Shown piece by piece: positions 4,333 through 62,400 of a DNA stretch of 64,000 nt. The notes under the pieces are model-generated. The model had not been told where the DNA came from and did not search any database. It worked only from the letters and a program-made list of their open reading frames with translations. How positions within the stretch are numbered: the stretch's first letter is position 1; every line of letters starts with the position of its first letter. A program made the position numbers and the translations under genes. This DNA comes from a virus. Where the stretch lies: positions 1 through 64,000 of the IMG/VR virus record IMGVR_UViG_3300037247_001239. The stretch is one strand, 5' to 3'.

Positions 4333-4346
4333 GGGTTTTCCTTTCG

Positions 4347-4884: not shown

Positions 4885-4918
4885 GTTATGTCTCCTTTAA
4901 GGTTGGTCGATGGGTGGT

Positions 4919-5233: not shown

Positions 5234-5234
5234 G

Positions 5235-20251: not shown

Positions 20252-20995
20252 CTAACCCTGCACCAGTTCAGGCACCCCCTCGCTGGGTGCGGACTGCGGT
20301 GTACCCCCGTATAGGGCCAGAACTTGGCGAAGGTACGCACGATGTTGGTCTCCCAGCCACCACTGACCTCGGGCCCACTCCTGGCCGAAGTGCCGCAGAG
20401 TGTGCTGGGCGTCCCACGTCGAGCCAGGGTGGGCAAACCGCACGTAGACGGCCGGATCGTTGGCCAGCATCGTGAAGCCCGGCCAGTTGCCCAGGAACAC
20501 GCTGTCCTCTTCCTTGCCCTGGTGAGGGTAACGGGCGTCGGTCTTGGGGTGCAGGATGCTACCGTGGATCCCCGTGTTGTCGAAGAACCGCACGGCCGCG
20601 GTGTCGCTGCCCCAGTCGTAGCACAACTGATACTGAAGGAGCACGGGAGACCCGGGGTTCTGCTTCCATGCCTCGACCTGGAGGGCCATGCGGTCTTCGC
20701 GGTAGTGATCGTCATCATCCCACTGGGTCACCACGTTCCCATGAGCCTTGTCCAGCCCGATGTTACGAAGCTCCCCGAGCGACTTCTTACTCTGGACTGC
20801 CACCACGCGGACGTTGTCCGTAGAGAAGGGCAGCAGATCAAAGCATCCATCGGCGACGATGAGCAGTTCCCGGCAGTCTGCCGGATACGTCTGGCGGTGA
20901 AAACAGTCAATCGCCGCGGGCAGGAACTTGGCCACTCGGCCCTCTTCTTTTCCCGTGACGCAAACGGCGGTAACGAACGGCGGCTGGTTTTTCAT
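20252..20995 (-). CDS. Family 2-type glycosyltransferase
   Basis: 247 residues. GT-A fold landmarks: FVTAVCVTGKEE at the start, REL-LIVADGC, SLGELRNIGLDKA, and the metal/nucleotide-sugar motif VTQWDDDDHY near residues 90-99. A Trp-rich region follows. It probably transfers a sugar from a nucleotide donor, to host surface glycan, virion protein or DNA base. It overlaps the Tat-leader gene stop by 4 bases, so the two are co-translated. No membrane segment seen. Confidence 0.8.
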   Translation of the reverse strand: MKNQPPFVTAVCVTGKEEGRVAKFLPAAIDCFHRQTYPADCRELLIVADGCFDLLPFSTDNVRVVAVQSKKSLGELRNIGLDKAHGNVVTQWDDDDHYREDRMALQVEAWKQNPGSPVLLQYQLCYDWGSDTAAVRFFDNTGIHGSILHPKTDARYPHQGKEEDSVFLGNWPGFTMLANDPAVYVRFAHPGSTWDAQHTLRHFGQEWARGQWWLGDQHRAYLRQVLALYGGTPQSAPSEGVPELVQG

Positions 20996-21375: not shown

Positions 21376-21405
21376 CACGATTTCCTTTCCTGTTGAGGGT
21401 TTCCA

Positions 21406-38381: not shown

Positions 38382-40355
38382 TCACATCGGCTGGGGCGCC
38401 GGCTGCTGTCCGGGTTGTGGCGGACCGGGCGCTGGCTGCTGGCCCGGCATCTGCGGTTGCATCGGCGGCGGGGCCAGCATCATGTCGTCCAACCGCATCC
38501 CGTAGGCATCGCCCAGGAACCGCACCAAGGCGTTCCAGGGCGCCGGGTTTATGGCAACGTACTGAAGCAGCGTCGGCCCCAGCGCCTGCATCAACATCTC
38601 GGCGTTGGCCGTCATCGTCTGCTTATTTCGCCGCTGGGCCGTGCCCGCCTCGATCCGGTAGGAGAGTTCCGCGGCGGCCACCTCTGGCGGCGCGTTGACC
38701 AACTGCTGCCACGCCTGGGTGAACGGACCGGGCTGAGCCCCCAACACGGTCTCCTGCTGCTGTTCGCCGAACAGTGGGGCCACCACCTCGCCAGGGACCA
38801 GCACCCGGGTCGCGAACCCCTCGGCTCTGGCCAACCTTGACTGCCAGTCCTCGGCACACTCCGACATATCCTCCGGCCGGTTCATACTGTGGCCCTGGCG
38901 AATCTGGGCCTCGGAGGCCGAACGAATCTGGGTGCCACCCTGGGCACCCTGCAACAGGGATGTCATGCCAGTAGATTTCTCAAACGCCAACTCGACCATC
39001 TGGACTACTTTCAATAGGTCCGCGTGGAGTTGCTTGAACTCCACTTGGGCGAACTTCTTTTGAAGGTCTTCGGCGACGTGGCCCTTGACTTGGATGATCT
39101 GCAGATCGACGCCACTCTTCAGCCAATTGGTAAAGTCCTCTTCCAGTCCCGCGTCACAGACCAGCCCCAACTTACAGGCAGCCCGCACCCGGCCCATCAT
39201 AAAGCTATAGGTTCGGTCGATGAATTCCTGTAACGGCAACGCCGCCTTGATGGGACTCTGGGCCCAACACGAATCGGTGTCGGGATAGAAATCGCAGACC
39301 ACGAACGGCCAGGGATTGGACTGTTCTTGATGGAAGGGGATGGGCCACTCCAGGCGGGCCTTGATCTCGGCGTCGGTCGCAGTCTCCATGACCTCCGGCG
39401 GAAGGTTGGCCGGGTACGGCAGGCCCGGTACGATCACCAGCCAACAGTTGTGGCCCAGCGACTCGACTATCTGGGCCAGCCGGCCCACACCGCTGTCCAG
39501 TTCGCGCAGGGCGTCGTCGCCACCCAGGAGCTTCTGTCCCAGCCCCAGGCCACGGGTCCACATGATGTCGTACTCGGCTACATCACCCTGGCGATCGTCG
39601 CCCGTTCGCCCATCGTCCGCTACCGGTGGTTCCCCCTCTTCCTGTCCCGCCTGGTTCTGGTAGGAATGGATGCGGCCCTGCAGCTCCTTGCGGGGCAGGC
39701 CATACTGTTCGGCCAGCCGCCACACGCTGCTACGGCGGTGTCGGCTGCACCAGCCCGCCTCGTTCAGGCGGTCGGCGTCGGGGTCGATGTTCAGGTCGTT
39801 CACGCTGCCGTACATGGCCGCGGGGATCAGCCCGCCCGTACTGCCCGGGACCATCTCGATCCACTGCACACCGCGGCCCTTGACCAGGGCCTCGATCAGA
39901 CTGCGGCGGCACTCGCCCCGGTAGTCGTACTCGGTGGGCGTGTAGTTCAGCCACCACTGCATCAGCCAGGCCCGGGTGCGGTCCTGGATGGCCAGCGGCC
40001 CCGGTGGCATCGGTTGCCCCGGCGGCATCCCGAACATCTCCGGCGGCGGATCGTGCCTCGACGGCTCCACCTGCCGGTGTGGCACCTGGTGGAACACGAA
40101 CGGCAGGAACGTGGCCACGTAGTCGAACGTCAGGTTGCGGCGGATCTTGTAGATCGGCTCCTGCAGCTCCGGATACTCTTCCCCATCCACCGGCAGCGGC
40201 GGTTTATACAGGTCCCCGTAGTCTGCCCCCAAGAAATCCCAGCAGCGCGCAGCCATCTTCCCGAACCGGCGGTGCTTGACCTCGGCCGCGACGTTCAGTT
40301 GTCGCCGCCAGAGGCCCACGATACTGCTCAGGATGTCCCTAGGACTAGACGGCAT
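38382..40355 (-). CDS. Portal protein (podovirus type)
   Basis: 657 residues. N terminus ILSSIVGLWRRQLNVAAEVKHRRFGKMAARCWDFLG, central QWIEMVPGSTGG, and the stem region (KSTGMTSLLQGAQGGTQIRSASEAQIRQGHSM). It ends in a Pro/Gln-rich tail. Size and order fit podovirus head-to-tail connectors. It forms the ring through which DNA enters, next to the terminase, with an adaptor downstream. Confidence 0.85.
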   Translation of the reverse strand: MPSSPRDILSSIVGLWRRQLNVAAEVKHRRFGKMAARCWDFLGADYGDLYKPPLPVDGEEYPELQEPIYKIRRNLTFDYVATFLPFVFHQVPHRQVEPSRHDPPPEMFGMPPGQPMPPGPLAIQDRTRAWLMQWWLNYTPTEYDYRGECRRSLIEALVKGRGVQWIEMVPGSTGGLIPAAMYGSVNDLNIDPDADRLNEAGWCSRHRRSSVWRLAEQYGLPRKELQGRIHSYQNQAGQEEGEPPVADDGRTGDDRQGDVAEYDIMWTRGLGLGQKLLGGDDALRELDSGVGRLAQIVESLGHNCWLVIVPGLPYPANLPPEVMETATDAEIKARLEWPIPFHQEQSNPWPFVVCDFYPDTDSCWAQSPIKAALPLQEFIDRTYSFMMGRVRAACKLGLVCDAGLEEDFTNWLKSGVDLQIIQVKGHVAEDLQKKFAQVEFKQLHADLLKVVQMVELAFEKSTGMTSLLQGAQGGTQIRSASEAQIRQGHSMNRPEDMSECAEDWQSRLARAEGFATRVLVPGEVVAPLFGEQQQETVLGAQPGPFTQAWQQLVNAPPEVAAAELSYRIEAGTAQRRNKQTMTANAEMLMQALGPTLLQYVAINPAPWNALVRFLGDAYGMRLDDMMLAPPPMQPQMPGQQPAPGPPQPGQQPAPQPM

Positions 40356-40840: not shown

Positions 40841-42508
40841 CTACACGACGGCTGGCTGCCGTCTCCTGCGACTGGCGTTCTTTTGCTTCTTCTCCCACAT
40901 CCGTTCGGCGGCGGTCTGGGTCTTGACGGGGATCTGTTCGGGACGCTGGTAGCGGGGCGCGACCGATGCCCCGTACTCCAGGGCCTCAATCAGGTCGGAC
41001 AACCGCAGCTTGACCCGCTTGTCGGGCCGCTTGCGATCGTAGTACGCCTCCTGGATTTCCTTATGCAGTTCGGGGCAGATGTTCTTGAAAACCCGCAGCT
41101 TGGCACTGCCCTCAAACGGCCCGCACTCCCGTACCCGCATCCAGTCCAGCAGGGCCTCTTCGCGGAACATGATGTCATCGCTGCCGGCAAAGAACCCGGC
41201 CAGCGGCCCCATCACCCGCGGTTCGACGCCATGGTCTTTCAGCGCCTGCCAATACTGTTCGGCCACGCTGCGGTCGTCCTGTCCGGCCCGCCCTTGGCGG
41301 CCGAATCGCTTGTCGATCACCATCGCCTCGAACTTCCAGTCGCCTTGCCGCTCGGCCACCAACTCCGCCCAGCGGTTGGCATTGGCATTCTTCAGTGGGA
41401 AGGCGTCGTAGATCCAGATATGTTTCTCGTCCGGATCAATGGCCGCGAAGATGGTACCCGCCCGCTGGCGGCCCGGGTCCAGGAACACGTACCGCGCCCA
41501 GTCCTCCGGAATATCAAACGGTTCGCACCCGTGTTCACCCTCCGGGCGGTAGCACGAATAGACCCGGCGGCCAAACAGCGAGAACCGACCGTAGAACTTG
41601 ACCTCCAGGTCTTCCTCGGTCGTCAGGCTACGGCGAAACTCTTCCTTGGCCTCCGGCGAAAGGAACGGGTTGTCGGAAATCTGGACCTCAAACGACTCAA
41701 TGTTCTGCGTGGAGTCGGCGGCCCGCTCGTAGAGTTCGGCCAGTTGGGGCGTCGACACGTCGGGCGTGGCCGACCAGATCCCCACCCCTTCGCGGTCGAC
41801 CAGCCGGGCGTTGCTCTCGGCGTAGAACGCCAGGTTGTCGAATTCCTCGTCGAACCAGACTATATCGAGCTGGATGCCCCGCGGCGGGTCGGAACCGCCA
41901 CTGCGAAACCACATCTCCCAGCCGTTAGTCAGCGTTACCATCCGCGGGATGCCCCGCTTGCGTTCCTCCCATGCAATGTTTCGGATCATCCTGGGGGGGA
42001 TCAACGGCTCGCTGGGCCGCCACTCGGCGCGGCGTGCGAGATCGTCCGGGTCGAGCCGCGCGGGGTCATCGGTGCGCGGCCGCAGTGCCCGCAGCTTCCC
42101 GGTCTGCCGGTCCCGGACGGTATTGAACGCACCCGGCCTGCCCAGCAGAGACCAGATCGGGTTGCCCAAATGCTCTACGTCCTTCCCCACGATCAGCACG
42201 CGCCCGTCCCTCTTGCGATACTTGTCGTGTGGGTCCTGGCCGGTCACGGCCCTCGCTATTTCGGCGGCCACGGCCACGCTCTTGCCGGCCCGGTTACTGC
42301 CCACCGCCAGCCGCCAATGGGCTCGGGATCGGTGAAACTCCTCCAGCCCGGGCAATGGACAGTAGGCCAGCAGACCTTCCCGTTGACGTTGGACCAACTG
42401 CACAGCCAGCGCGCGAATCTCGGCCATCTTCAGCCGCCTCAACGGCGAAGGGCTGCGAGGAGGCGGTTTGGGCGTCCCCTCTACCATGCTGGTCCAGTCA
42501 ACCGTCAT
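40841..42508 (-). CDS. terL: Terminase large subunit
   Basis: 555 residues. Walker A GSNRAGKS at 70-77, Walker B DIVWFDEE at 215-222, then TPDVST coupling region, and the RNase H-like nuclease with YVFLDPGRQRAGTIFAAID near 337-355. Two-domain packaging motor: ATPase drives DNA into the head and the nuclease cuts at the end. It starts two bases upstream of the small-subunit candidate stop. Confidence 0.93.
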   Translation of the reverse strand: MTVDWTSMVEGTPKPPPRSPSPLRRLKMAEIRALAVQLVQRQREGLLAYCPLPGLEEFHRSRAHWRLAVGSNRAGKSVAVAAEIARAVTGQDPHDKYRKRDGRVLIVGKDVEHLGNPIWSLLGRPGAFNTVRDRQTGKLRALRPRTDDPARLDPDDLARRAEWRPSEPLIPPRMIRNIAWEERKRGIPRMVTLTNGWEMWFRSGGSDPPRGIQLDIVWFDEEFDNLAFYAESNARLVDREGVGIWSATPDVSTPQLAELYERAADSTQNIESFEVQISDNPFLSPEAKEEFRRSLTTEEDLEVKFYGRFSLFGRRVYSCYRPEGEHGCEPFDIPEDWARYVFLDPGRQRAGTIFAAIDPDEKHIWIYDAFPLKNANANRWAELVAERQGDWKFEAMVIDKRFGRQGRAGQDDRSVAEQYWQALKDHGVEPRVMGPLAGFFAGSDDIMFREEALLDWMRVRECGPFEGSAKLRVFKNICPELHKEIQEAYYDRKRPDKRVKLRLSDLIEALEYGASVAPRYQRPEQIPVKTQTAAERMWEKKQKNASRRRRQPAVV

Positions 42509-43186: not shown

Positions 43187-43467
43187 CGCTGTCCCTCGCA
43201 TTTCTCACACCCGTAACGGCTGCCGACACACTCGCACTGCCCGAACGGCGCGCCGTGGAGGACCAGCACGCGGGCCGCCTCCAGGTGACGCACTGCCCGC
43301 CGAACGTCGACGTGGTGGCAGTAGGGCAGGTTGCCGATTTCTGCCAGGTCATTACGAATCGCCTCCAGTCCCTTGGCCAGCCTCACCAGGTGGCGACGGC
43401 CCGCAAACGTTTTGGACAAATGCCACGGGACCAACCGGCCCGTAGCGTCGTACTCACGCCGGTCCAT
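43129..43467 (-). CDS. Hypothetical protein with Cys cluster
   Basis: 112 residues. Central helix (KGLEAIRNDLAEIG) and a C-terminal QCECVGSRYGCEKCEGQRW zinc-like cluster. Overlaps both neighbours by 14-58 bp, coupled translation likely. Function unknown. Confidence 0.55.
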   Translation of the reverse strand: MDRREYDATGRLVPWHLSKTFAGRRHLVRLAKGLEAIRNDLAEIGNLPYCHHVDVRRAVRHLEAARVLVLHGAPFGQCECVGSRYGCEKCEGQRWLSVDRMPYPKINEPKRS

Positions 43468-44227
43468 CTCGCAACACCGGGATCGAGGGATCGGGCGACA
43501 TCGGTTCCTCGAACCGAGCTTCGCCCGGCTGTTGAAAACCGGGTCGCTCCACGCACTGGCTTTGCCAATGCCCAGCCCAGGTGTCGAAACTCACGTAGAT
43601 CGGTATCCCGGCCGCCCGACACCGCAGCGAAAACTCCACGTCGCTGCTGTGCCGCAGGTCGTCCTCCCGGGGCGAGGTAAACGTATCCTTGAAGTACGGT
43701 TCCTTGAGTCGCTTGAAGATCGAGGTGTCCATCAGCATCGAACCGGCCCCCACCGCCTCCACGCTGGCGAACCCCCGTTGCTGCTGGGCCAGTTCGCGGC
43801 TCAGGCGCGTCAGCGAGCCCTTGGGCGTCTTGACAAAAATGTGGATCGGGTGCCCCGGCGCGCCGCCGCAATAGGGCACGGCCACGATCGAGCCGGGATG
43901 TGCCTTGATGAACGGCCACGCCTCGTGCCACCACGCCTTGGTCCCCTCGGCCGGCATCCCTTCCGGGTTCCACTTCACGTAGCGGTCCAGCGCCATGTCC
44001 GGGTCCAGCCAGAGGATGTGCGTACACTCGTGCCTCAGCGCGAAGCTCACGCAGTTGTTGCGGCACATCGCTACGCGGTGGTTGGTGATGTTGAATGACA
44101 GCACCTCTGTCAGTTCGGGGCTGACTCGTGGAAGGGTGAACCCAAAGTGAAACAGCCAGGTCCCCATGTCGGCGGCCTCCAGGTTCCATCCCGTAGGCCG
44201 GGCAATACACAGTCTGTAACGCTCCAT
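43454..44227 (-). CDS. GT-A type glycosyltransferase-like protein
   Basis: 257 residues from ATG 44227. HILWLDPDMALDRY (about 70-83) carries the DxD metal motif; GSIVAVPYCGG and GAGSMLMDTSIFKRL, then SDVEFSLRCRAAGIPIYVS, follow the GT-A layout. No membrane segment. Its gene lies after the capsid decoration candidate, apart from the other sugar genes by one structural block. It may glycosylate virion proteins. Confidence 0.7.
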   Translation of the reverse strand: MERYRLCIARPTGWNLEAADMGTWLFHFGFTLPRVSPELTEVLSFNITNHRVAMCRNNCVSFALRHECTHILWLDPDMALDRYVKWNPEGMPAEGTKAWWHEAWPFIKAHPGSIVAVPYCGGAPGHPIHIFVKTPKGSLTRLSRELAQQQRGFASVEAVGAGSMLMDTSIFKRLKEPYFKDTFTSPREDDLRHSSDVEFSLRCRAAGIPIYVSFDTWAGHWQSQCVERPGFQQPGEARFEEPMSPDPSIPVLRDGPA

Positions 44228-44319: not shown

Positions 44320-44868
44320 TTAAGCGTGGTGCGAGACCACGGACAGCCCGCGGGTCACACGGATAATCATGTTGGTTGCGGATGCCCCGGCCGTGGTAAC
44401 AGCCGTACCGACCACAACGTCCCCGGCAGCAGCGCGGTACGCTTTCCCCGACGCTCCTGCCTGGATAGCCATCCCGGCGGTGAACGAGGTGCTGGTCTTC
44501 AACACCCGGCACAGGCCCTCTTCGACGACAAAACAGACATCGTTGTCAACAATGCTGCTGAGTCCCGAGATTCTGTTGTAGTCGTCCAGCGGCTTGCCCA
44601 GCTCACCGTCGCCGGTAGCCACGCCGTCGATCTTGGCCCCCCACTCGTCCTTGGTTGCACTCTGGAACGAGTAGAACTTCAGCGCGGGCGTGATGGCCGA
44701 CCCCTTGGCGTTCTGCACCGCCCGGAGCGTAACCCGCCCTCCCCCGCCGTGCAGTACATCGGGCACCTCGAAGGTCTGCCCGATAATCTCCTTGGCCGCG
44801 TCATCAACCGGGGTGGTCACCTCCGCGAAGAGGGTCGAGCCCCGCTGAAACGGCAAAATTCTATTCAT
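44320..44868 (-). CDS. Capsid decoration or minor head protein candidate
   Basis: 182 residues; beta-rich with GVATGDGELGKPLDDYNRISGLSSIVDNDVCFVVEEGLCRVLKTSTSFTAGMAIQAGASGKAYRA and a C-terminal VVVGTAVTTAGASATNMIIRV. Immediately after the major capsid gene, where decoration proteins are usually found. Identification by context. Confidence 0.55.
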   Translation of the reverse strand: MNRILPFQRGSTLFAEVTTPVDDAAKEIIGQTFEVPDVLHGGGGRVTLRAVQNAKGSAITPALKFYSFQSATKDEWGAKIDGVATGDGELGKPLDDYNRISGLSSIVDNDVCFVVEEGLCRVLKTSTSFTAGMAIQAGASGKAYRAAAGDVVVGTAVTTAGASATNMIIRVTRGLSVVSHHA

Positions 44869-44880: not shown

Positions 44881-45981
44881 TTACGCACTGTTGTTGAGTT
44901 TGGCGAAGAACGCGGGCGAGTCGTAGCGCATCTGACCGTAGAAGTCGATCAAGATCTTCTGTGCCCCGCCGTAGTCGATATCGAAGTCTTTGGTGATGTC
45001 CCAAAGGGTCTTCTGCATCGAGAGAAGCTCCATGTTCTTCCACGAGAGGCCGTAACAGGCCCGCGGGGTGCAGCCAAATTCCGCCATAAATGCAATTCCG
45101 TCTATTCGTATGTGACGAAATCCCAACTTGACGAGATCCTGGTCCTGGTCACCCACCACCATCCGTTCCTTCTCCTCCAGGGAGGTCAGCGCCTCCTCGT
45201 AAGAGATCGGGTCGGTCAGCCAGAGGTCGGGCGTGACCCCGTGCATCGCCTCCATGAAGGTGCGGGCTTTTCTCTGGGCCTCCCGCCAGGTGTTGATCCA
45301 GGTCTTGGTCGTGGCCGTGAGCTTGGTTGCCTTGTAATTGACCACCATCGGGTGCCAGAAATGGTAAGCAAGGTCTGGCGTACCCATGGGATACGTGTCA
45401 GTGGAGGTGGCGTTGTTGGCCGCACCCCCGTAGGTTCCCAAGTCCATGGTCAGGTTGGCGTAGGTACCAGTGACGCTCGCGTGCCAAGTGTTGGAGTCGA
45501 TCACTGTACTGGAGGTCTGGAACAACGTCTCCAGCCCGTCCAGGCCGTCCGAGTTGGACGAGTCCTGGGAGTTGTTGTAGATTTCGGTCCGCGCGAAATA
45601 CTCCTGGCAGTTCTCCTGGACCTTCTCCACCACGGTGGCGAGCAGTTTGTACCGGGCGGTCTTGTCGCCCTGGAACATCAACTTCTCGCCCTTGGAAATC
45701 AACTCGCCCTTGTTCAGGGTCGAGTAGCCCGCCGAGGCTTTCTTGTGGCGGTTGACCCTCACGAACGACGCCGGCTCCAGGTCACCGGACCGGGAAGGCG
45801 GATCGCGTTGGTAGACCGTCAACCAATCGAAGTCGGCGGCGCTTGCGCCGTACTTGATGCGGCCATTCTTGCGAAGCATCGCTGGAATGACCGTCTTGCG
45901 CATCCCCACCTCGGTAATCTTCTGGAGGTGATCGGTGATAACACCGATTGCGGGACGACTCCATGCTACTAAACCAGCCAT
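44881..45981 (-). CDS. Major capsid protein (HK97 fold, podovirus type)
   Basis: 366 residues, ATG 45981 after AAGGAGCAGCTA. Length, long N-terminal helix region (ITDHLQKITEVGMRKTVIPAMLRK), the E-loop-like QGDKTARYKLLATVV segment and the P-domain helix (KTWINTWREAQRKARTFMEAMHG) fit a phage major capsid protein. The Gln-rich scaffold candidate directly upstream and the terminase downstream agree. Confidence 0.8.
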   Translation of the reverse strand: MAGLVAWSRPAIGVITDHLQKITEVGMRKTVIPAMLRKNGRIKYGASAADFDWLTVYQRDPPSRSGDLEPASFVRVNRHKKASAGYSTLNKGELISKGEKLMFQGDKTARYKLLATVVEKVQENCQEYFARTEIYNNSQDSSNSDGLDGLETLFQTSSTVIDSNTWHASVTGTYANLTMDLGTYGGAANNATSTDTYPMGTPDLAYHFWHPMVVNYKATKLTATTKTWINTWREAQRKARTFMEAMHGVTPDLWLTDPISYEEALTSLEEKERMVVGDQDQDLVKLGFRHIRIDGIAFMAEFGCTPRACYGLSWKNMELLSMQKTLWDITKDFDIDYGGAQKILIDFYGQMRYDSPAFFAKLNNSA

Positions 45982-46172: not shown

Positions 46173-47279
46173 CTATCCCAGTTGTCCTTGTGTGGCTTCT
46201 CGCTGTGCGGCAAGTTTTGCTAGGTGTTCACCCATACCGCCCGGCGTGCCACCCCATTTTTCCAGGTCCGCCCGGTACTCCGCCTCGGGGTCGCCGGCGA
46301 CCGGCGCGGCCACGGCCGGTTGGTGGACGGCGGCGGGCTTCACTGCTTGCGTTGACTGGGCCGGCTGGGCCTGCTGTTGCTGGATCCGCCGCTCCATCAA
46401 TATCAGCCGGGCATGACTGAATGCGTTGACTCGGTTGGGCGCAGCCTGCATCCCCATGGCCTGTTGTTGTGCGGCTTCCGCCTGCATGATCTGTCCCGCG
46501 ATCTCCATCCACTCCGCACCGTCGGGGGTCACGTTGTTGGGGTCCTGACGGTTGGCCTGTGGGTTGCGAAATGCCCAAGATGCGTTGGCCTCCACAATCT
46601 GGCCGATCGCCGCGGCCTCCTGCTGCTGGGCCGTCTGTTGCTGATTGATCTGTTGAACTACAGGCGCGGAGAGTTGCTGCACCGGCTCGGCCAGCGCCTC
46701 GTTGCGGTGGTAGGCGAAGTCGTAGGCCGCCCGTTGGATCTTTTGGGTGGCATCTTCCAGGCTGCGCTTCACGTCCGGCGGGGCGTTCTCGCCTTCGCGG
46801 GCCACGATGTCTTGCCAGCGGCGGATGTCATCCCACTCGGGCGACTGCTGCGCGGTCGGCTGTGGCTGCTGGACTTGCTGGCGTTGCTGCATGAACTCCC
46901 GGAAAGCGGGCTCGTGCCCTCTCACCGAGCGGCCGTACTCGGCGTCGGCGTCGCGGCGGCCTACCAGGCGGTAGGCTTCAACCAGGCCGGTGATCGTGGC
47001 GTTATCGCCGGTGTACTTCTCGCCGAGCTTCTCGCCCCAGCCCTCGTCGATGAATCGAGTCAGCTTCAGGGCCTCGTCATCGGTGGCTGTGGGCTCGCCG
47101 TCAGTCGGTCCGGCAGCGGTGGGCTGGACTGGCTGAGGTTCTGCGGGTGGCGCGGCGGGCTCGACCGGTGGGGCGGCGGGCGGAGTCTCGGGCGGAGTCT
47201 CGGGCGGCGAGGCCGGGGCCTCGGCGGCCACGAGCGCGGCCACCAGATCGGGAGATGCGGTAGTTGGATCCTCGGACAT
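46173..47279 (-). CDS. Scaffolding protein candidate
   Basis: 368 residues from ATG 47279, just after GGGGGACGAT; an ATG 33 bases upstream is also open. The first ~75 residues are Pro/Ala-rich and disordered. The middle is helical, Gln-rich (QQRQQVQQPQPTAQQ, INQQQTAQQQEAAAIGQ). It ends in a charged helix (YRADLEKWGG). Size, disorder, helical content and position just upstream of the capsid gene match podovirus scaffolds. Confidence 0.6.
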   Translation of the reverse strand: MSEDPTTASPDLVAALVAAEAPASPPETPPETPPAAPPVEPAAPPAEPQPVQPTAAGPTDGEPTATDDEALKLTRFIDEGWGEKLGEKYTGDNATITGLVEAYRLVGRRDADAEYGRSVRGHEPAFREFMQQRQQVQQPQPTAQQSPEWDDIRRWQDIVAREGENAPPDVKRSLEDATQKIQRAAYDFAYHRNEALAEPVQQLSAPVVQQINQQQTAQQQEAAAIGQIVEANASWAFRNPQANRQDPNNVTPDGAEWMEIAGQIMQAEAAQQQAMGMQAAPNRVNAFSHARLILMERRIQQQQAQPAQSTQAVKPAAVHQPAVAAPVAGDPEAEYRADLEKWGGTPGGMGEHLAKLAAQREATQGQLG

Positions 47280-47416
47280 ATCGTCCCCCATGTACCAAGG
47301 GCTGCTGGTCATGGTGGGGGACTCAGCGGAGCGGCGCGGCTATGCCACTCCGCCGCCAGTGTAGCGGACACTGGAGAGTAGTGCAATACCCCTGCCCAGG
47401 TTTTCTGGAAAACTGG

Positions 47417-48286
47417 CTAGGGGACTATTTGCCAGTTCTTTTGGGTGGCCTGAGTGGCCAGGGGGGATGGGGTTTGAGGGGGTGAGTCAGCTGGCCCGCA
47501 CTCGTAGATGGTCTTGATGGCGGGGTCGGCGTAGTGCATCTCTGCCAGCTTGACTGCCTGCTCGTGCTTGCCGGGTGTCGCCGTGCCCCCTAAGTTCCAT
47601 TTATCAATCAACTTACGTCGATTCTCTTCCCACACCCGGGCGTTCTCCGGCTGGGTCGCGGGGTCGACGGTGGCGTGGCGGGTGTGCTGAATGGGGATGT
47701 CTACCTGGCGGATAGTGCCAGGGTTGAGCGATTCCACGGTCAACCCCAGATCCATATCCTCGCAGAGCTGGGGGGCATATTGAGGATCGAAAAGCCAAAG
47801 TAGTGAATAGCACGGATTGCTCACCCGCCGGAAGTCGAGCTGCACCATCAAACACCACCCCTCGATATAGGGGGGGTCGTTGGGGCCGCCCCAGCAGCCG
47901 TCGGACCCCACTGTCGTGAGGCTCGGCCCCACCAGCTTGGCGCCGGCGTCCAGGGCCGCCACCAGCGGTTCGGCCCACCGCCCCTGAATCACCACGTCGT
48001 CGTTCAGCACGGCCACGCAGTCGTCAGTCTCGGCCTCCAGCACCCGCCAGCCGAGGTTGCAGGCCGGCGTGTAGCCGATCTTCTCGCCCACGTCGATGAT
48101 GGTCACCCGCCAGCCGTTGTCCCGCAGGCACAGCGCCTGGGGTACCACGGCAGCGTGCCGCCAGTCCTCGTGATGGTTCACCACCAGTACCAGGTGGCAG
48201 GGTTCGGTGTGCTCGGCCAGCGAGGCCAGCATGTTTTTCAGTAGCGGCTGGGCGCCACAGGTGGGAACGATGATGTGGACTGCCAT
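47417..48286 (-). CDS. Family 2 glycosyltransferase
   Basis: 289 residues from ATG 48286, overlapping the radical-SAM stop. VHIIVPTCGAQPLLKNMLASLAEH start, VVNHHED, and CVAVLNDDVVIQGRW with the DxD-like DDV motif. WCLMVQLDFRRV and a C-terminal acceptor region follow. It probably transfers a sugar from a nucleotide donor. First member of the island spanning to 53.8 kb. Confidence 0.8.
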   Translation of the reverse strand: MAVHIIVPTCGAQPLLKNMLASLAEHTEPCHLVLVVNHHEDWRHAAVVPQALCLRDNGWRVTIIDVGEKIGYTPACNLGWRVLEAETDDCVAVLNDDVVIQGRWAEPLVAALDAGAKLVGPSLTTVGSDGCWGGPNDPPYIEGWCLMVQLDFRRVSNPCYSLLWLFDPQYAPQLCEDMDLGLTVESLNPGTIRQVDIPIQHTRHATVDPATQPENARVWEENRRKLIDKWNLGGTATPGKHEQAVKLAEMHYADPAIKTIYECGPADSPPQTPSPLATQATQKNWQIVP

Positions 48287-49326
48287 CACAAAAACTCCGC
48301 ATGGGTCTTGGGCTGCACCGCGTCTTTCAGCTCCCGGTTGATATGATCCGCCCGACAGAACGGCACGCACTTCTGCACGTCGGTCCGCTCGATCAGGTCC
48401 TGCTTCTCCTGCGACTCCCAAATCTCTGCCAGAGGATGCTCCAGTACGTTGCCGATCTCCATCCCCGCCACGTCCCGGTAGTGGCAGCAGAGCGGCATCG
48501 AGCCGTCTGCCTGGACCACGCCCACGAAATGGGCCCCGTGGCAGAGCTTGTAGGGCCGCCGCCAGTTGGCAAAGTGCCGGTACTTCTGTTCGGAGGCCAG
48601 TACCTTGAACGTCTCCGTCTCGTATTGCCGGCAGACGGGCAGCACGTCGTCGATGTCCGTCTCGTCGTACAGGCAGGGCCGGAACTGGATGTAGTCGGCA
48701 CCCCTATTTCTGACCTCTTTTGTTGCACTGAGCATTCCGCGTTTTGTCTCGGCCGAGGTGAGGTACCCCACGCCAATCGTACAATCGGCATCGGCGGCCG
48801 TCTTGGAGGGACGCAACGCCCCTATCGCGTTCAGCGCTTCATCAAACCCGTCCACCCCATGTACCGCTTGGTACATCACCGAATCGCTAGCATCCAGACT
48901 TACCCGAATCCACTCACAAGCCCGGACCAGGGTTTTCATTTGCTGCACTTCCTGGAGGGCACGCTCAAGACCACGCAAGGGACCCGCCGTGCCTATCAAC
49001 GTCCCGTTCGTAATCAGCCCCACCCTCAGCCCCTGTTGGGCCGCAAACCCGCACAGTTCCGCACAATCCTCGTGCATCAACGGCTCGCCCCCGCCGGTGA
49101 ACATCACCCCCTGCACCCCGTACTCGGCCATCTCGACCAGGATGTGACGGGCGTCGTCGGCGTTCATCTCGCGCCCGGCCCGTCCGCCGATACACTGCGG
49201 ACACTTGTGGTTGCAGCGGTCGGTCAGGTCCAGTTCCATCGTCACCGGCGGCGGGACCTTGCCGTCGCGGTACGCCACGACCCGGTCGGCCCAGGCCCAG
49301 AGCTTGTTGGTTCCGAAGATGTTCAT
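48286..49326 (-). CDS. Radical SAM enzyme with SPASM-type C-terminal cysteines
   Basis: 346 residues from ATG 49326. ELDLTDRCNHKCPQC gives the CxxxCxxC 4Fe-4S site (38, 42, 45). MFTGGGEPLMHE is the SAM-binding GGE motif. The end carries several cysteines (CHGAHFVGVV...LCCHY...CVPFCR), like the SPASM domain for auxiliary clusters. Enzymes of this type modify peptides or sugars. Placed between glycosyltransferases, a sugar or protein modification is likely. The start is chosen after GAAGAAG. Confidence 0.85.
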   Translation of the reverse strand: MNIFGTNKLWAWADRVVAYRDGKVPPPVTMELDLTDRCNHKCPQCIGGRAGREMNADDARHILVEMAEYGVQGVMFTGGGEPLMHEDCAELCGFAAQQGLRVGLITNGTLIGTAGPLRGLERALQEVQQMKTLVRACEWIRVSLDASDSVMYQAVHGVDGFDEALNAIGALRPSKTAADADCTIGVGYLTSAETKRGMLSATKEVRNRGADYIQFRPCLYDETDIDDVLPVCRQYETETFKVLASEQKYRHFANWRRPYKLCHGAHFVGVVQADGSMPLCCHYRDVAGMEIGNVLEHPLAEIWESQEKQDLIERTDVQKCVPFCRADHINRELKDAVQPKTHAEFL

Positions 49327-49466
49327 CGCTTCTTCTTTTCTCGACTCTTTCTGGACTTCCTTACTACTGCGGTAGCCTTGGCCCCCGAGCCGGTCGACTC
49401 GTGGACGTGCTCCCACATTCTGTGTTCCTTCGCCGACAGTTTTTTACCGCCTAGTTTCTTGGGCAT
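49323..49466 (-). CDS. 47-residue Lys/Arg-rich protein
   Basis: Short ORF from ATG 49466, ending by overlap with the radical-SAM start and starting inside the end of the LicD-cytidylyltransferase gene. Very basic (KKLGGKKLSAKEHRMW...RKSRKSREKKKR). Translational coupling on both sides supports it. Perhaps a small RNA-binding protein; function unknown. Confidence 0.45.
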   Translation of the reverse strand: MPKKLGGKKLSAKEHRMWEHVHESTGSGAKATAVVRKSRKSREKKKR

Positions 49467-50439
49467 CGTTTTGCCTCCGTATCCTGGCCTTCAACTCGGT
49501 CGAGTTGTAGCCCGGGGTGTACGGCACCTCGACCAGCTTCCCGCCCCAGTGTGGCAGGGCGTCTATCACGAGTTGCCGAGACGCCGCCTGAACACCTTCC
49601 CGCCAATCGTCGCCGTGTACCACGTAGGCCGGCTTGTGGGCCAAGAGGCTCCGGAGGTAGTCTCCCTGACACGTCACGTGGGCCACGCCCTTCAGTCCCG
49701 TGGCCACCGCCAGCCGTGCGGAATAGCCGAACGCCGGCTCTGGCTTGTATTTGCAAATTGCCTCGTCGGATAGCAGCCCTATCCAAACCTCCTTTGCGTC
49801 CAGCGAGGCAGCCACACTCAATACGTTCAGGTGTCCCGGATGCACCACGTCCAGACACATCGGCACGTAGGCGATGTCCTGTTTTGTCAAGAAGTGCGGC
49901 TTGTACGCTCGATGCTCGCACGGCTGATTGTACTCTGTGTCGGGAACTTCCCACTGGTCGTAAAGTTCGTGGAGGATGTACACATAATCGCTGGGTACAT
50001 TGAACAGCCTGCCGTATAGCACCCCCGGCCGCCATGCGCCAAACGCCTCGGCGGCAAGCACGATACAAAACGGATCGGGGCTGCCGTGGGTAGGGTTGTA
50101 GCGGTACGGCCCGAGCTTGGTAAACGCCGTCAGGTCGCCGTGTTCGCCGTACCCCTTGAACTTCACCGCGTAGGGCCGCCCGTCCCAGTAGCCGGCGTGG
50201 CGGTGGTCGATCACCTCGGTCTGGATCCCCCGCCGCTGTATGGCCTTGACAATCGCCTCGACGGCCGGCTCGAACTCCTCGGCCCTCGCCCAGAGGTCGA
50301 TGTCGCGGTCGATTGCAATGAACTTGTCCTCACGGGTCCAGCCCAACAGCGTGCCGGCCCCCAAGCAGAACGGCAGCCTAACATCCTTCAGGGCATCGGC
50401 CACATGGAACAGCAGCTTGCAGGCGTTGTGTTCGTTCAT
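49444..50439 (-). CDS. LicD-like domain fused to cytidylyltransferase-like domain
   Basis: 331 residues. First part: LGAGTLLGWTREDKFIAIDRDIDLWARAEE (about 26-55) is the LicD/fukutin nucleotidyltransferase-like site with D-x-D. Second part: LDVVHPGHLNVLSVAASLDAKEVWIGLLSDEA (HxGH at 200-203), YKPEPAFGYSARLAVATGL, VVHGDDWREG and PGYNSTELK follow the CTP:phospho-alcohol cytidylyltransferase order. Such domains make and attach phosphocholine, phosphoethanolamine or aminoethylphosphonate-type groups to glycans. A fusion could make the CDP donor and transfer it in one protein. Start overlaps the upstream stop. Confidence 0.8.
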   Translation of the reverse strand: MNEHNACKLLFHVADALKDVRLPFCLGAGTLLGWTREDKFIAIDRDIDLWARAEEFEPAVEAIVKAIQRRGIQTEVIDHRHAGYWDGRPYAVKFKGYGEHGDLTAFTKLGPYRYNPTHGSPDPFCIVLAAEAFGAWRPGVLYGRLFNVPSDYVYILHELYDQWEVPDTEYNQPCEHRAYKPHFLTKQDIAYVPMCLDVVHPGHLNVLSVAASLDAKEVWIGLLSDEAICKYKPEPAFGYSARLAVATGLKGVAHVTCQGDYLRSLLAHKPAYVVHGDDWREGVQAASRQLVIDALPHWGGKLVEVPYTPGYNSTELKARIRRQNDAQETRR

Positions 50440-51785
50440 CCGGTTGCGCTCACGGTCTGTTGTCGAAACGCGAGATTGCCAATACACCCCCGGCAGCAAT
50501 CATGTCGAGTCCTAGGGAACCCGGCCAGCAACTCCAGGTATCCCACCTGTAGACGGCAGTGGCTCTCGGGATACCGGGCCAGATCCAGGCCAAACTCATT
50601 CGCCACCGTGACCAGCATTGCGCAGCCGTAGACGCGGTCGCCCAGCAACGCCGGACCCTCGCACCCGCATCGGGCCGGCAGCACCTCGCTGCCGGCCAGT
50701 TCACGGGGGATCAGGTAGTGCCGCCGCCGGGGCGCCACCTCGACCTTGGCCCCGTACCGTTCTTGCAGCCGCCGAATGGCCCGGTTGTTGTCGCCATAGT
50801 ACGAAATCCGCAACGTCGACAGCGATTCCATCAACCCATCGGTCACCCGGTCGACGGGATCCCCATTCGTAAACAGGTTCACCTGGTCGCCCAGTCCCGA
50901 CTCCCGCAACAGCCGGGCTCCCTCCTCGACGTGCGGCCACAGCAGCGGTTCGCCACCGGTGAGGATCAGCGAGCGGTAGGGCGGATAGCCAGACGCCTTG
51001 GTGAGCTGGATCCATTCCACAAGGTCGTTCAGCGATAGTTCGTAGTCGGGGGCCCACCGGCGAAACCCCCGCTGCGAACACTCGGGGCAGTCCCGCGTGC
51101 AACGGGCGGTGGTGAAGAAATTGAAATGATTGTTCTGGTGGTCCAGCACGGGCAGCCTATTCGTGAGATAGTTCTTCGGCGGCTGCATCCGGCCAATCCG
51201 CAGATTCTCCAGGTTGCCCCCGAGGATCCGCTGGTCGCGCGGCGGATGATCAACGTGCATCAAGGGAAACTGCCGCAACTCCACGGTCTCGATCCCACGC
51301 TCCCTCCGCCGCAACGCTAGGATGTCGTCCTCGCCGCCGTGGCCGGTCAGCCGCTCGTCCCAACCGCCCACCCGCAACCAGTCGGCCGCGGTCATGGCCA
51401 CCCAGCTACCGGTCCCGTCCTCTCGGATTGGCAGCCCCAGCCACCCTTTCCAGTCCAGCTCGCCGGCCCTCTCCGCAGGCAGGTTGCGACACTTGGCCCA
51501 CACGGCCGTGCCGTCCGCAACCGTGCGCCGCGTATGCTCGACCAGTCCCGGGGGCACCAGCATATCTACGTCGGTGCAGACGATCGCCCGGGAGGAAGAC
51601 AGGGCCGCAAGAATCCCGTCGTTGCGGGCCTTGGCTCGGCTGAACTCGTCTAGTTTAATTGCCATGTGGAGATTGATTAGTTCGTAGCCAAGTGTTTTTT
51701 GCAGCGTGGCCTTGAAGCGATCCCGGACTTCGTCGGAGATCCCCACGGCAGCAACCACGATTCCCAACGGGCGGTTATCCATCAT
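50436..51785 (-). CDS. Glycosyltransferase-radical SAM fusion protein
   Basis: 449 residues. N-terminal domain: CTDVDM with D-x-D at 72-74, GGWDERLTGHGGEDDILALRRRE (140-162), the acceptor-side motif of galactosyltransferase-like GT-A enzymes. From residue ~215 a radical-SAM domain starts: ARCTRDCPECS with CxxxCxxC at 229, 233, 236, LILTGGEPLLWP, then a Cys-rich C terminus (CGCEGP, CCRGCIG) for further clusters. The combination suggests the sugar is added and then chemically altered by the same protein. Partner of the separate radical-SAM gene at 48286. Confidence 0.85.
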   Translation of the reverse strand: MMDNRPLGIVVAAVGISDEVRDRFKATLQKTLGYELINLHMAIKLDEFSRAKARNDGILAALSSSRAIVCTDVDMLVPPGLVEHTRRTVADGTAVWAKCRNLPAERAGELDWKGWLGLPIREDGTGSWVAMTAADWLRVGGWDERLTGHGGEDDILALRRRERGIETVELRQFPLMHVDHPPRDQRILGGNLENLRIGRMQPPKNYLTNRLPVLDHQNNHFNFFTTARCTRDCPECSQRGFRRWAPDYELSLNDLVEWIQLTKASGYPPYRSLILTGGEPLLWPHVEEGARLLRESGLGDQVNLFTNGDPVDRVTDGLMESLSTLRISYYGDNNRAIRRLQERYGAKVEVAPRRRHYLIPRELAGSEVLPARCGCEGPALLGDRVYGCAMLVTVANEFGLDLARYPESHCRLQVGYLELLAGFPRTRHDCCRGCIGNLAFRQQTVSATG

Positions 51786-52438
51786 AGATGGTGCTTTCGT
51801 CTAATGTACGCACTGCTGGCCGGGCCGTAATCCTGCGCGCTGATCCCCCGGTCAAGGTAATGGGCGTCGAATAGAACATCGTCCACCAGCACGCCCCGCC
51901 AGTCAGCCTCAAGCATTGTCAGCCAGCAGTCCCAGTCGATGAAACTCCTGAGATGCTCGTCCCAGCCGCGAAACGCAGGGGCACGCATCAGGCTCATCAC
52001 GCTGATACTGTTGCGACCCCTGAGATGTTTCCAGGTAAACGGTTCTGCCACGATGATCTTGCCGTCCGGTACCTTGCATTCGCCGCCCGCGTGGACGACC
52101 CGGTAGTGCCCGTAGGCCACGCCCACCGTGAGGTCCTCCTTGATAGCCTGATACAAACGCCGCAAAGCATCCTGGTGCAAAACAACATCATCGTCGCAGA
52201 AGAACAGGAAGGGTTGCGTGGCCTTCCGCCAGCCTCGGTTGCGTTTCTCCGACGCGCCCCCCGGCCCCAGCTCGATAATGATCTCCGCCGGCCTGTTCTC
52301 CACGATCGCCCGTATCACCGGCAAACAGAAGAAGTCTTGCCTCGACTCCTGGAGGGTCACGATCACGCTGATCGGCAAGGTTTCAGATTCGTTTTTCAGA
52401 CACACCGTACTTCTCTTTCTGCACGTAGGGAAGATCAT
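51782..52438 (-). CDS. Family 2 glycosyltransferase
   Basis: About 218 residues. VIVTLQESRQDFF and EIIIELGPGGASEKRNRGWRKA, then PFLFFCDDDVVLHQDALRRLY with the DDD metal motif, SLMRAPAFRGWDE and IDWDCWLTM. Start is uncertain: an ATG at 52438 is used, but a later GTG or TTG near 52400 could be true, since the upstream gene ends at 52383. Overlaps the next gene by 4 bp. Confidence 0.8.
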   Translation of the reverse strand: MIFPTCRKRSTVCLKNESETLPISVIVTLQESRQDFFCLPVIRAIVENRPAEIIIELGPGGASEKRNRGWRKATQPFLFFCDDDVVLHQDALRRLYQAIKEDLTVGVAYGHYRVVHAGGECKVPDGKIIVAEPFTWKHLRGRNSISVMSLMRAPAFRGWDEHLRSFIDWDCWLTMLEADWRGVLVDDVLFDAHYLDRGISAQDYGPASSAYIRRKHHL

Positions 52439-53045
52439 GACCACGAAAGCCCTCGATTTGCTCACAGGTAAGCGACGTAATCTTCATCGCAGGTTTGCCG
52501 ATGGCCGCAATCAGGTACCCGTCGCCGGTGACCTTCGGAGCGAATTGCCTGAACACGCTGCTGCGGCACACGTAACAGGCATGTACCGTGGACACCCTTC
52601 CGGCACGGCACGCACAGGGGAAGTCGCGTTCGTTGGACACACGGAGCGAGGCGCCCACACCAACTCGTTTGAGCATTACCGCCGCCGCGTCGGTCTCTTC
52701 CAGTAACGCAACCATACTGCCCAGCCATCCCCAAGGCACCAGGATGTCGTTGTCGTGCTTCACGATGTACTCCGAGTCGTCGGCGATATGTTCCAGCGCT
52801 GCCAGCATCCCGCCGAAGTCGCCGGTGTTCTCCGGCAAGTGGATCGCGCGGACCCGGCTGTACCACTTGCTCGGCATTGCGGCGATCCAGTCCAGCCACT
52901 CACGGGTCCCGTCGGTCGACGCCTGGTTGATGACCAGGTGCTCGTAGTCGGGGTAGTGCGTGTTGTTGCGTATGGCCGCCACCGTCTGGACGGTGTACTC
53001 CAAGCGGTTGCGAGCCCGGGTCACGATGCTTACTTTGCCGTTCAT
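52383..53045 (-). CDS. Family 2 glycosyltransferase
   Basis: 220 residues. KVSIVTRARNRLEYTVQTVAAI start, HLVINQASTDGTREWLDW, YIVKHDNDILVPWGWLG with the D-x-D motif, and a terminal CxxC pair around ACRAGRV...ACYVCRS. Part of the four-gene sugar cluster; 3-4 bp overlaps with both neighbours imply one translation unit. Confidence 0.82.
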   Translation of the reverse strand: MNGKVSIVTRARNRLEYTVQTVAAIRNNTHYPDYEHLVINQASTDGTREWLDWIAAMPSKWYSRVRAIHLPENTGDFGGMLAALEHIADDSEYIVKHDNDILVPWGWLGSMVALLEETDAAAVMLKRVGVGASLRVSNERDFPCACRAGRVSTVHACYVCRSSVFRQFAPKVTGDGYLIAAIGKPAMKITSLTCEQIEGFRGHDLPYVQKEKYGVSEKRI

Positions 53046-53764
53046 GCAGAAGCCACCTCGTCCCAGTCAATCAATGGGCTCAACCACTGCGCCTCGCAGT
53101 GCGTGGCGTAGGCGGGTACGGCCGAGCCGATGGTAGCTCCCAGCCTGCACAACTCTCGGAATATATCGAAATCCGGGGGCACGATTTCCCCCTTGCTCAT
53201 CTCGTAGAACACCCCCGCGTCCTTCCGCAGCGTCCCCAGCCGGCACGCAAACGTCATGGTGGTGGAGTTGGTCAGCTTGAAGTGACAGCGTGGCCCCAGG
53301 TAGAGTCGCGTGTTCTCCGCCCTGAAGGCGACCAACGGGTTGGGGCCGCCATCGAGATACTTGTCCGGATGGTCGTAGAGTGTGAGGTAGTGAAAGTCCA
53401 GGGCCATCCCCTCGTGGATCACCTCCGCCGCGCCCGGCCGGTGCAGGTAGTCGTCCTCTACCAGGTAGACGATCTCGTCGTCGGAGGCGTCGAGGCTGAG
53501 GGTGTAGTCCAGTGCCCGCAAAAACGCCTCGGCGCCGTTGGCGGCCTGGATGGGGCAGAGGTGAGCGGGTTCGTGCGGGCAAAGAACCGTAAGAAAGGCG
53601 TCAAATTGGACAGGGGTACCAAAACCATGGGCAACGAAATGGAGGCTGGCCTTGCTGCCAAGCACCTTGACGCAGCTAGCCAAGCACTCTTTCTTAGAAA
53701 ACCACCCTGGCCGCGGCTTGCCCGTATCCTTCTCGGGAGAGATCCGGTACACAATCTGCATCAC
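53042..53764 (-). CDS. GT-A type glycosyltransferase
   Basis: 240 residues. IVYRISPEKDTGKPRPGWFSKKECLASC start, DEIVYLVEDDYLHRPGAAEVI (E-D-D metal motif), TNSTTMTFACRLGTLRKDAGVFYE and a C-terminal WLSPLIDWDEV. Likely a nucleotide-sugar dependent transferase, last of the island on this strand (its most upstream gene). Confidence 0.72.
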   Translation of the reverse strand: MMQIVYRISPEKDTGKPRPGWFSKKECLASCVKVLGSKASLHFVAHGFGTPVQFDAFLTVLCPHEPAHLCPIQAANGAEAFLRALDYTLSLDASDDEIVYLVEDDYLHRPGAAEVIHEGMALDFHYLTLYDHPDKYLDGGPNPLVAFRAENTRLYLGPRCHFKLTNSTTMTFACRLGTLRKDAGVFYEMSKGEIVPPDFDIFRELCRLGATIGSAVPAYATHCEAQWLSPLIDWDEVASA

Positions 53765-54027
53765 ATCACCTCCAATTCCCTGAGTTTCTGGAGCAACCCC
53801 GGGGGCGGCGGTCCCTCATTGAAGTTGCAGGTCCCGTCGTCGCCGCGAATCAGCCGCAACGTGAAGTCGTACGCACGGGCCGCCTCTTCCGGGCTATCGA
53901 AGTAACCCAGGTTCAGATGGCGATCGCCACCCCAGCGGATCTTGGCCCTCCACCGCCGGTTGGTGCAGTGCCAGGAAACTCCGCGATAATGTGGTGCATC
54001 GCTGGGCGGCTGATGCTTCTTCGTCAC
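53761..54027 (-). CDS. AP2-domain DNA-binding protein
   Basis: 88 residues from GTG 54027, overlapping the preceding TGA. YRGVSWHCTNRRWRAKIRWGGDRHLNLGYFDSPEEAARAYDFTLRLIRGDDGTCNFNEG is a complete AP2/ERF-type domain (YRGV, WRAKI, LGYF, EEAARAYD, NFN). In phages these usually belong to homing endonucleases; here there is no nuclease part, so it is a stand-alone DNA-binding protein or a remnant. Located between the sugar island and the adhesin genes. Confidence 0.85.
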   Translation of the reverse strand: MTKKHQPPSDAPHYRGVSWHCTNRRWRAKIRWGGDRHLNLGYFDSPEEAARAYDFTLRLIRGDDGTCNFNEGPPPPGLLQKLRELEVM

Positions 54028-54028
54028 G

Positions 54029-54238
54029 TCAGGTTCTCCGCAAAACGTCCTCCGACCCGCTCCCGCGCGCCATGGTGGTCTCGGCCGAGCGGGCCGCCTT
54101 CCCCAACGTAGCCTCGGTGGTGGCAACGCGACGGATCGTGGTGGGGAGGGTGACTGGGGGCGCCACGCCCAAGCCAGTCCACGTCCCACTGGCAAAGGTA
54201 TCGCTCGCAAACGTGTTGCTGGCGAAGCTGTTTTTCAT
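54029..54238 (-). CDS. Small protein with SFASxTFAS repeats
   Basis: 69 residues from ATG 54238. NSFASNTFASDTFASGTW repeats FAS three times. This kind of start recurs in small phage structural proteins, so it may be the end of the fibre cluster. Function unknown. Confidence 0.5.
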   Translation of the reverse strand: MKNSFASNTFASDTFASGTWTGLGVAPPVTLPTTIRRVATTEATLGKAARSAETTMARGSGSEDVLRRT

Positions 54239-62068: not shown

Positions 62069-62400
62069 GGGGTTCTCCTTTCCGAGCACTCCCGCTGAAC
62101 GTCGCGGCAGTTGTCCCGTAAATCGCTGATAGCATCCCGGAGTTGACCGCTCTCTTGCAGCCTGTCCTTGTGATGTTGTTCATCACGGGCCACGATGTTG
62201 TCCAGCGTGGTCGTAAACTGCTTCTGTTGTTCGGACATGTATCTTAGGAGATGTTGCAGGGCCCACACGAGCGCGCCCAGCGCGACTGCCAGGGCGCCCT
62301 CCTTCGCGTACGGCACGCTCGACGCCGGGTCGACGGTCTGGGCAAACACTACCAGTGTGGAACCACCGAACAACGCGCCAAATACCAGTAGCATTTTCAT
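62065..62400 (-). CDS. Small membrane protein, holin- or spanin-like
   Basis: 111 residues. LLVFGALFGGSTLVVFAQT signal-like segment, then a second transmembrane helix (EGALAVALGALVWALQHLLRYM) followed by a coiled coil (EQQKQFTTTLDNIVARDEQHHKDRLQE). Either a holin or an inner-membrane spanin; placed in the lysis gene region. Confidence 0.55.
   Translation of the reverse strand: MKMLLVFGALFGGSTLVVFAQTVDPASSVPYAKEGALAVALGALVWALQHLLRYMSEQQKQFTTTLDNIVARDEQHHKDRLQESGQLRDAISDLRDNCRDVQRECSERRTP

Follow-up and report, generated by a model that had tools for sequence, protein, structure and literature searches.

What is a tailed phage doing with a run of glycosyltransferases (GTs), two radical SAM genes and a LicD-type phosphotransferase inside its head operon? 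The question arises from a 64 kb stretch (the window) of the 74,578-base virus record IMGVR_UViG_3300037247_001239, a record that may be incomplete, where an island of eight leftward genes occupies positions 47417-53764. Its open reading frames (ORFs), verified at their coordinates and searched with Pfam and NCBIfam profiles, encode three family-2 GTs, one GT-like protein, a GT-radical SAM fusion, a radical SAM/SPASM enzyme, a LicD-cytidylyltransferase (LicD-CT) fusion and a small basic protein. The best reading of this island is an exchangeable glycan-tailoring cassette whose flanks are kept and whose cargo is swapped; that the cassette decorates the virion of a tailed phage, with a phosphonate-class transfer by the LicD-PntC fusion, we judge to stand at about an even chance.

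Layout of the island

53761..54210, minus strand: AP2-domain protein with no nuclease part, at the upstream island edge; PF00847, E 4.8e-9; its end overlaps the GT1 start (GTGATG)
53042..53764, minus strand: GT1, probable glycosyltransferase, family unassigned; EDD motif; cyanophage homologues in glycan clusters
52383..53045, minus strand: GT2, family-2 glycosyltransferase; PF00535 (Glycos_transf_2), E 1.2e-18; its ATG overlaps the GT1 stop
51782..52465, minus strand: GT3, family-2 glycosyltransferase; PF00535, E 2e-8; true start uncertain, about 52378-52410
50436..51785, minus strand: GT (Glyco_transf_7C-like)-radical SAM fusion with CxxxCxxC; PF04055, E 2.4e-10; PF02709, E 4e-5, in the N-terminal half
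49444..50439, minus strand: fusion of a LicD-type phosphotransferase and a PntC/Fom1-type cytidylyltransferase; CTP_transf_like, E 5e-7; LicD match below the curated cut-off
49323..49466, minus strand: small basic protein, 47 aa; 60% identical homologue in viral contig L110
48286..49326, minus strand: radical SAM/SPASM enzyme; PF04055, E 5.5e-14; SPASM, E 3.9e-9
47417..48289, minus strand: GT4, glycosyltransferase adjoining the scaffold gene; PF00535, E 2.6e-8; orthologues in viral contigs L110 and L109

Refined starts shorten the LicD-CT ORF, which runs to 50499, to an ATG at 50439 that overlaps the preceding stop, the radical SAM/SPASM ORF, which extends to 49416, to an ATG at 49326, and the GT4 ORF, which reaches 48421, to a GTG at 48289 or an ATG at 48286. 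Stop-start overlaps of the ATGA or GTGATG type mark the AP2-GT1, GT1-GT2, GT3-fusion, fusion-LicD, basic-radical SAM and radical SAM-GT4 junctions, and the basic gene overlaps the end of LicD-CT by 23 bases. Because such overlaps occur at most junctions, the island genes are very likely coupled in translation as a single unit, in keeping with the leftward, largely overlapping arrangement that an earlier, sequence-only reading of this DNA had described. Scans for sigma-70 promoters and terminators returned no more sites than in shuffled sequence, and we therefore claim no transcript boundary. GC content at third codon positions (GC3) is 0.77-0.81 in the island genes and 0.77-0.83 in the head genes; since the two sets agree in codon-position GC, the island does not resemble a recent insertion.

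The sequence-only reading had counted four GT genes in the island. Three are certain by Pfam, and the fourth, GT1, is only probable: searches of Pfam, NCBIfam and the PDB gave no match to it, nor did a profile built from its homologues hit any solved structure. Near full-length homologues (32-34% identical) occur in the cyanophages S-SRM01 and Mel-JY01, where they adjoin GTs, a sulfotransferase and a nucleotide-sugar epimerase, and together with the EDD motif they make it plausible that GT1 is a glycosyltransferase. The proposed GT-radical SAM fusion is present, with Radical_SAM (2e-10) and Glyco_transf_7C (4e-5) matches in 50436-51785, as is the second radical SAM gene, with Radical_SAM and SPASM matches in 48286-49416. 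The GT-radical SAM fusion has no close relatives in viral_contigs or the phage records, and its AlphaFold model, built without an alignment, was unusable (pLDDT 38).

The tiny basic protein of that reading is likewise a real gene, as its homologue in L110 indicates. It might be a peptide substrate of the radical SAM/SPASM enzyme, resembling a ribosomally synthesized and post-translationally modified peptide and perhaps glycosylated by GT4. The 47-aa gene does overlap the SPASM enzyme gene by four bases and is kept in the same cassette in L110; however, the L110 peptide abuts GT4 rather than the radical SAM gene, and the radical SAM homologue of another phage, Podoviridae sp. ctQWt234, has no adjoining peptide of this kind, so that we regard a peptide-substrate role as extremely improbable.

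AP2 domains are common in phage homing endonucleases, and the AP2-domain protein at 53761-54210 may mark the route by which cargo enters. The gene directly upstream of the island, a fibre-like gene of 1021 aa (54235-57300), has a GC3 of 0.58 against 0.77-0.83 in its neighbours, a deviation that suggests recent acquisition.

The LicD-PntC fusion

The fusion protein LicD-CYTIDYLYLTRANSFERASE is PntC-like in its cytidylyltransferase half, by sequence, predicted fold and genomic company. The LicD-cytidylyltransferase fusion called in the sequence-only reading is thus retained in refined form, with a PntC/Fom1-like and not a phosphocholine-like cytidylyltransferase. The best solved structure found by phmmer was the Fom1 domain (5x3d, E 5e-37), followed by an ethanolamine-phosphate cytidylyltransferase (3elb, E 1e-6). 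A Foldseek search with an AlphaFold model of the fusion, confident in the PntC half only and weak in the LicD half, returned Fom1 bound to the cytidine monophosphate (CMP) conjugate of 2-hydroxyethylphosphonate (HEP-CMP; 5x3d) at TMt 0.94, rmsd 1.6 and 51% identity, with other structures at 26% or less among the matches listed. The window domain keeps 37 of the 48 columns that are conserved at >=95% in 93 sequences fused to phosphoenolpyruvate (PEP) mutase, as compared with 44 in Fom1 and 22 in the ethanolamine-phosphate enzyme, a count by which we take the HxGH and YVVHGDDW..GVQ signature of the PEP-mutase-fused members to be conserved in it. A phosphocholine-type assignment of the fusion was rejected, identity to phosphocholine-type enzymes being at most 26%.

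Genomic company points the same way. In genome_contigs, 539 candidate stretches encode relatives of LicD-CT, and nearly all of the 80 bacterial or archaeal loci kept match only residues about 204-351 of the protein (42-57% identity). All but one of the 24 loci read in sequence are cytidylyltransferase-PEP mutase fusions (L018 with a degenerate PEP mutase motif), and L015 is standalone. Of the 80 loci, 26 have a match to the LicD profile no more than 5 kb from the cytidylyltransferase, which agrees with the LicD genes noted beside PntC (PMC6697681, Rice et al. 2019), and a separate licD gene stands immediately upstream in L018 and L065. Phage contigs L096 and L100 carry a standalone PntC adjoining licD or one gene away from it, with no PEP mutase in the stretch covered. 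The LicD half of the window protein has a Pfam E-value of 4e-4, slightly under the curated cut-off, and keeps the motif G-LLG--R-------DxDID in alignment with LicD of L065, L018, L096, L100 and L106.

The fusion shares with the PntC and LicD systems (PMC6697681) and with the Fom1 domain (5x3d) its cytidylyltransferase family, LicD partner and GT neighbourhood; it differs from those systems in joining LicD and PntC in one polypeptide, in its place in a phage head operon and in the lack of a PEP mutase. A single LicD-PntC polypeptide was not found in the open literature searched. Another such chain is encoded by L106 (IMGVR 3300044799_000235, 2730-5291), an 853-aa protein with the domain order GT-LicD-PntC-GT that also lies beside other GTs and putative tail genes; it is, however, a four-domain fusion from a different phage, with no radical SAM gene seen in its 6.3 kb contig.

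Points against a phosphonate substrate have to be weighed here. PEP mutase (PF13714) is absent from the record, and a phosphonate, if it is the substrate, must therefore come from the host; 11 of the 48 conserved columns are altered in the window domain; and the cytidylyltransferase tree was unresolved, with the window sequence on a very long branch and in no supported group, so that we make no claim on the origin of this PntC. The fusion might instead handle an ordinary phospho-alcohol (phosphocholine, phosphoethanolamine, glycerol- or ribitol-phosphate), with the remainder of the model unchanged. Phosphocholine is commonly moved by LicD family enzymes, and both the missing PEP mutase and the loss of some PntC-family residues (37 of 48 kept) fit such a role. 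Against it stand the 51% identity and TMt of 0.94 to HEP-CMP-bound Fom1, compared with at most 26% for phosphocholine, phosphoethanolamine and glycerol-3-phosphate enzymes, and the mere 22 of 48 family columns kept by the ethanolamine-phosphate cytidylyltransferase; we consider a phospho-alcohol substrate possible and rather unlikely.

In several other phage contigs (L099, L103, L104, L091 and L105) a PntC-PEP mutase fusion is accompanied by a B12-binding radical SAM enzyme, with LicD in addition in L099, L103 and L104; the gene content of these contigs points to phage-encoded phosphonate synthesis and tailoring. The PEP mutase motif occurs in 21 of 25 viral matches.

Kept flanks and swapped cargo in the head operon

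46173..47312, minus strand: putative scaffold protein; L109 and L110 homologues immediately before the capsid gene; function from position and composition
44881..45981, minus strand: putative major capsid protein; 67-68% identical in L109 and L110; function from gene order
44320..44868, minus strand: putative capsid cement protein; weak Phage_cement_2 (PF09956) match, E 0.009
43454..44227, minus strand: GT5, GT-like protein directly after the capsid and cement genes; DxD motif; no Pfam match; kept in relatives
40841..42508, minus strand: terminase large subunit; phrog_2, E 3.8e-16
38382..40355, minus strand: portal; phrog_156, E 3.4e-5
20252..20995, minus strand: GT6, separate family-2 glycosyltransferase; PF00535 match at 20633-20824

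The island sits inside the head operon, between putative tail spike or fibre genes and the capsid genes, and is followed downstream by the scaffold-like, putative capsid and cement-like genes, GT5, three small genes, the terminase and the portal. The putative capsid protein has no Pfam or PHROG match, and among 50,697 phage records it and GT5 had no match and the terminase only distant ones (<=27% identity); a transposase search of plasmids gave no match either. Capsid proteins 67-68% identical to it were found in two viral contigs, L109 and L110, and a third, more distant relative, L203, was reached through GT5. Across these contigs the flanks are kept wherever their positions can be read: GT5 occupies the same slot after capsid and cement in four contigs (L109 70%, L110 53% and L203 40% identical to the window), which upholds the additional GT called at 43454 despite its lack of a Pfam match, and GT4 precedes the scaffold in three (L110 51%, L109 59% over a partial sequence). 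The basic-protein homologue lies just before the GT4 orthologue, at L110 5073-5222. GT5 shows dN 0.25 and dS 1.01 (nonsynonymous and synonymous divergence, window versus L109), and the flanking GTs look to be under purifying selection; because of this, and because codon-position GC matches that of the head genes, we do not take the island genes to be chance.

The cargo between these flanks differs in L110, which encodes a B12-binding radical SAM enzyme, a PIG-L deacetylase, a putative methyltransferase, a family-2 GT, a radical SAM enzyme and a sulfotransferase-like gene; the methyltransferase and sulfotransferase have no Pfam match and were named from sequence features. The L109 and L203 contigs start downstream of the cargo. 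The search for this gene order in other phages, which the sequence-only reading had called for, thus found it recurring in relatives, and the genes are not inactivated there.

The association of radical SAM enzymes with GTs extends further. The window's radical SAM/SPASM protein is 29% identical over its full length to one in Podoviridae sp. ctQWt234 (MW202801.1, a complete genome), where the gene order is capsid, one small gene, radical SAM, GT, PhyH, methyltransferase, NodB and GT. As in the window, a radical SAM homologue and GTs follow the capsid gene; the cargo (PhyH, methyltransferase, NodB) differs, and the capsid has no detectable similarity. Relatives of the radical SAM/SPASM protein were found by profile scan in 140 viral loci, and within these radical SAM-bearing loci, some of which are near-duplicates, the density of family-2 GT matches is roughly sixfold higher up to 3.5 kb from the radical SAM gene (43 per 525 kb) than further off (9 per 667 kb). 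Pfam confirmed the company of the radical SAM gene in L120 (a GT and a methyltransferase) and in L114 (a portal and a MocA-type oxidoreductase). The SPASM-radical SAM gene beside GTs is recurrent in phage glycan islands, and at least three phages, namely those of the window, L110 and MW202801.1, have it in the capsid region.

The GTs might instead hypermodify phage DNA with a complex glycan, of which virus-encoded GTs are capable (Pyle 2024, as cited in PMC12619734). The record contains no member of the thymidylate synthase/hydroxymethylase family (PF00303), the island lies in the capsid operon, and the PIG-L deacetylase and sulfotransferase-like gene in the relatives' cargo fit glycan decoration; we consider DNA hypermodification very improbable and rejected it for want of a base-modifying synthase in this possibly incomplete record. 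The earlier judgment that the island exceeds what DNA glucosylation needs is thereby sustained.

The GT noted at 20252 (GT6) is confirmed by its PF00535 match. It adjoins a serine integrase/invertase-like gene (20252-22464 region; phrog_95, E 3e-34), which suggests that the phage is temperate. The gene at 60122-62089 weakly matches the C-terminal domain of a phage depolymerase (E 0.001); it is likely a tailspike and hints at an encapsulated host. A DUF3326 protein (34030-35031, E 1e-76) lies in the structural region, an unexpected site for that family.

Acceptor, proposed reactions and known systems

The enzyme set of GTs, radical SAM enzymes and LicD-PntC supports the earlier proposal that the island builds and chemically modifies a complex glycan, and our best reading gives this glycan a phosphonate (or phospho-alcohol) arm. 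We infer the acceptor, the identity of the sugars, phosphonate as the actual substrate, the order of reactions and the product. A virion protein of the same operon (capsid, cement or fibre) would carry the glycan, which GT4 and GT5 would start or anchor and which GT1, GT2, GT3 and the fusion's GT half would lengthen with host nucleotide sugars. The two radical SAM enzymes would edit the sugars by chemistry of the deoxygenation, epimerisation or decarboxylation type. LicD-PntC would first make a CMP-activated phosphonate of the 2-aminoethyl- or 2-hydroxyethylphosphonate class; its LicD domain, on the same chain, would receive this product and transfer it to the glycan. A nucleotide-sugar epimerase and an NTP_transferase-family sugar nucleotidyltransferase are, like PEP mutase, absent from the record, and the donors would therefore be host-made. 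The fullest version, in which the particle is coated by a radical-SAM-edited glycan capped with host phosphonate through the single-polypeptide LicD-PntC, from a slot swapped like a serotype locus, we put forward only tentatively, as a minority possibility.

We favour a virion acceptor over the host surface because the island lies in the head operon, a conserved GT directly follows capsid and cement, and membrane-spanning proteins are lacking: no island protein of the window, L110 or MW202801.1 has a membrane-spanning segment. GT4 and GT5 flank the putative scaffold, capsid and cement genes, as expected of a virion-glycosylation locus with GT genes in or beside the capsid or tail operon. Some observations weigh against this reading. 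The scaffold, capsid and cement assignments are putative, drawn from position and one weak match, and the alternative cargo is seen whole in one close relative only (L110). Peripheral cytosolic GTs can also build host lipopolysaccharide (LPS) or capsule, so that the absence of membrane segments is not decisive; it argues against lipid-linked Gtr conversion and not against cytosolic LPS-type GTs.

The cassette might instead remodel the surface glycan of the infected or lysogenised host, blocking the receptor to other phages or freeing progeny. This is a known role of phage GTs, as in Gtr-type conversion, and pelagimyophage islands have been so interpreted (PMC7029224); bacterial LicD/PntC systems act on surface glycans (PMC6697681); and the phage carries both the serine-integrase-type gene and the putative tailspike with its weak depolymerase-type C-terminus. 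However, the island has no GtrA-like flippase, membrane GT, polymerase or ligase and no membrane-spanning segment in its proteins, and it lies in a head operon, where expression would be late; on balance a host-surface role seems unlikely, if well short of negligible. Gtr-type O-antigen conversion itself (GtrA flippase, membrane-anchored GtrB/GtrC) was rejected, as the island proteins lack membrane-spanning segments.

The sequence-only reading knew of no characterised phage system with this set. That holds for the exact set as far as searched: the open literature searched yielded no radical SAM/LicD-PntC cassette in a capsid operon, and searches there for LicD or phosphocholine in phages, for phage genes of phosphonate metabolism and for radical SAM-GT-sulfotransferase sets in phages gave no report of the island's set. 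It does not hold more broadly, since islands of glycan genes, hypervariable regions rich in GTs and glycosylated capsids are already known from phages (PMC7029224; PMC11256854 and PMC12619734, citing Freeman 2023 and Pyle 2024). The GT-rich hypervariable glycan regions of pelagimyophages (PMC7029224) and the clusters of cyanophages S-SRM01 and Mel-JY01 resemble the island in being GT-rich and variable, some of them with radical SAM genes, and the cyanophage clusters contain the GT1 homologues; unlike the island, they are placed with tail-fibre genes or elsewhere and not in a capsid operon, and those examined have no LicD-PntC. Mycobacteriophage Che8 and its capsid-glycosylating relatives likewise encode GTs, which are tied there to glycans on capsid or tail proteins (Freeman et al. 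2023, as cited in PMC11256854 and PMC12619734); as described in those citing papers they have a few GTs, whereas the window has a cassette of several enzymes, radical SAM and LicD-PntC among them, with a predicted glycan product.

If a virion-decorating cassette is the right reading, some tailed phages would carry serotype-like, swappable glycan loci in the capsid operon and phosphonate groups on their own particles, and the GT/radical SAM clusters recurrent in phage metagenomes would gain a testable role. The one-polypeptide LicD-PntC would offer a handle on the still undescribed transfer step in phosphonate tailoring. Cell-surface phosphonoglycan chemistry has been proposed to limit viral lysis in marine bacteria (PMC8931226), and phages would be linked to that same chemistry.

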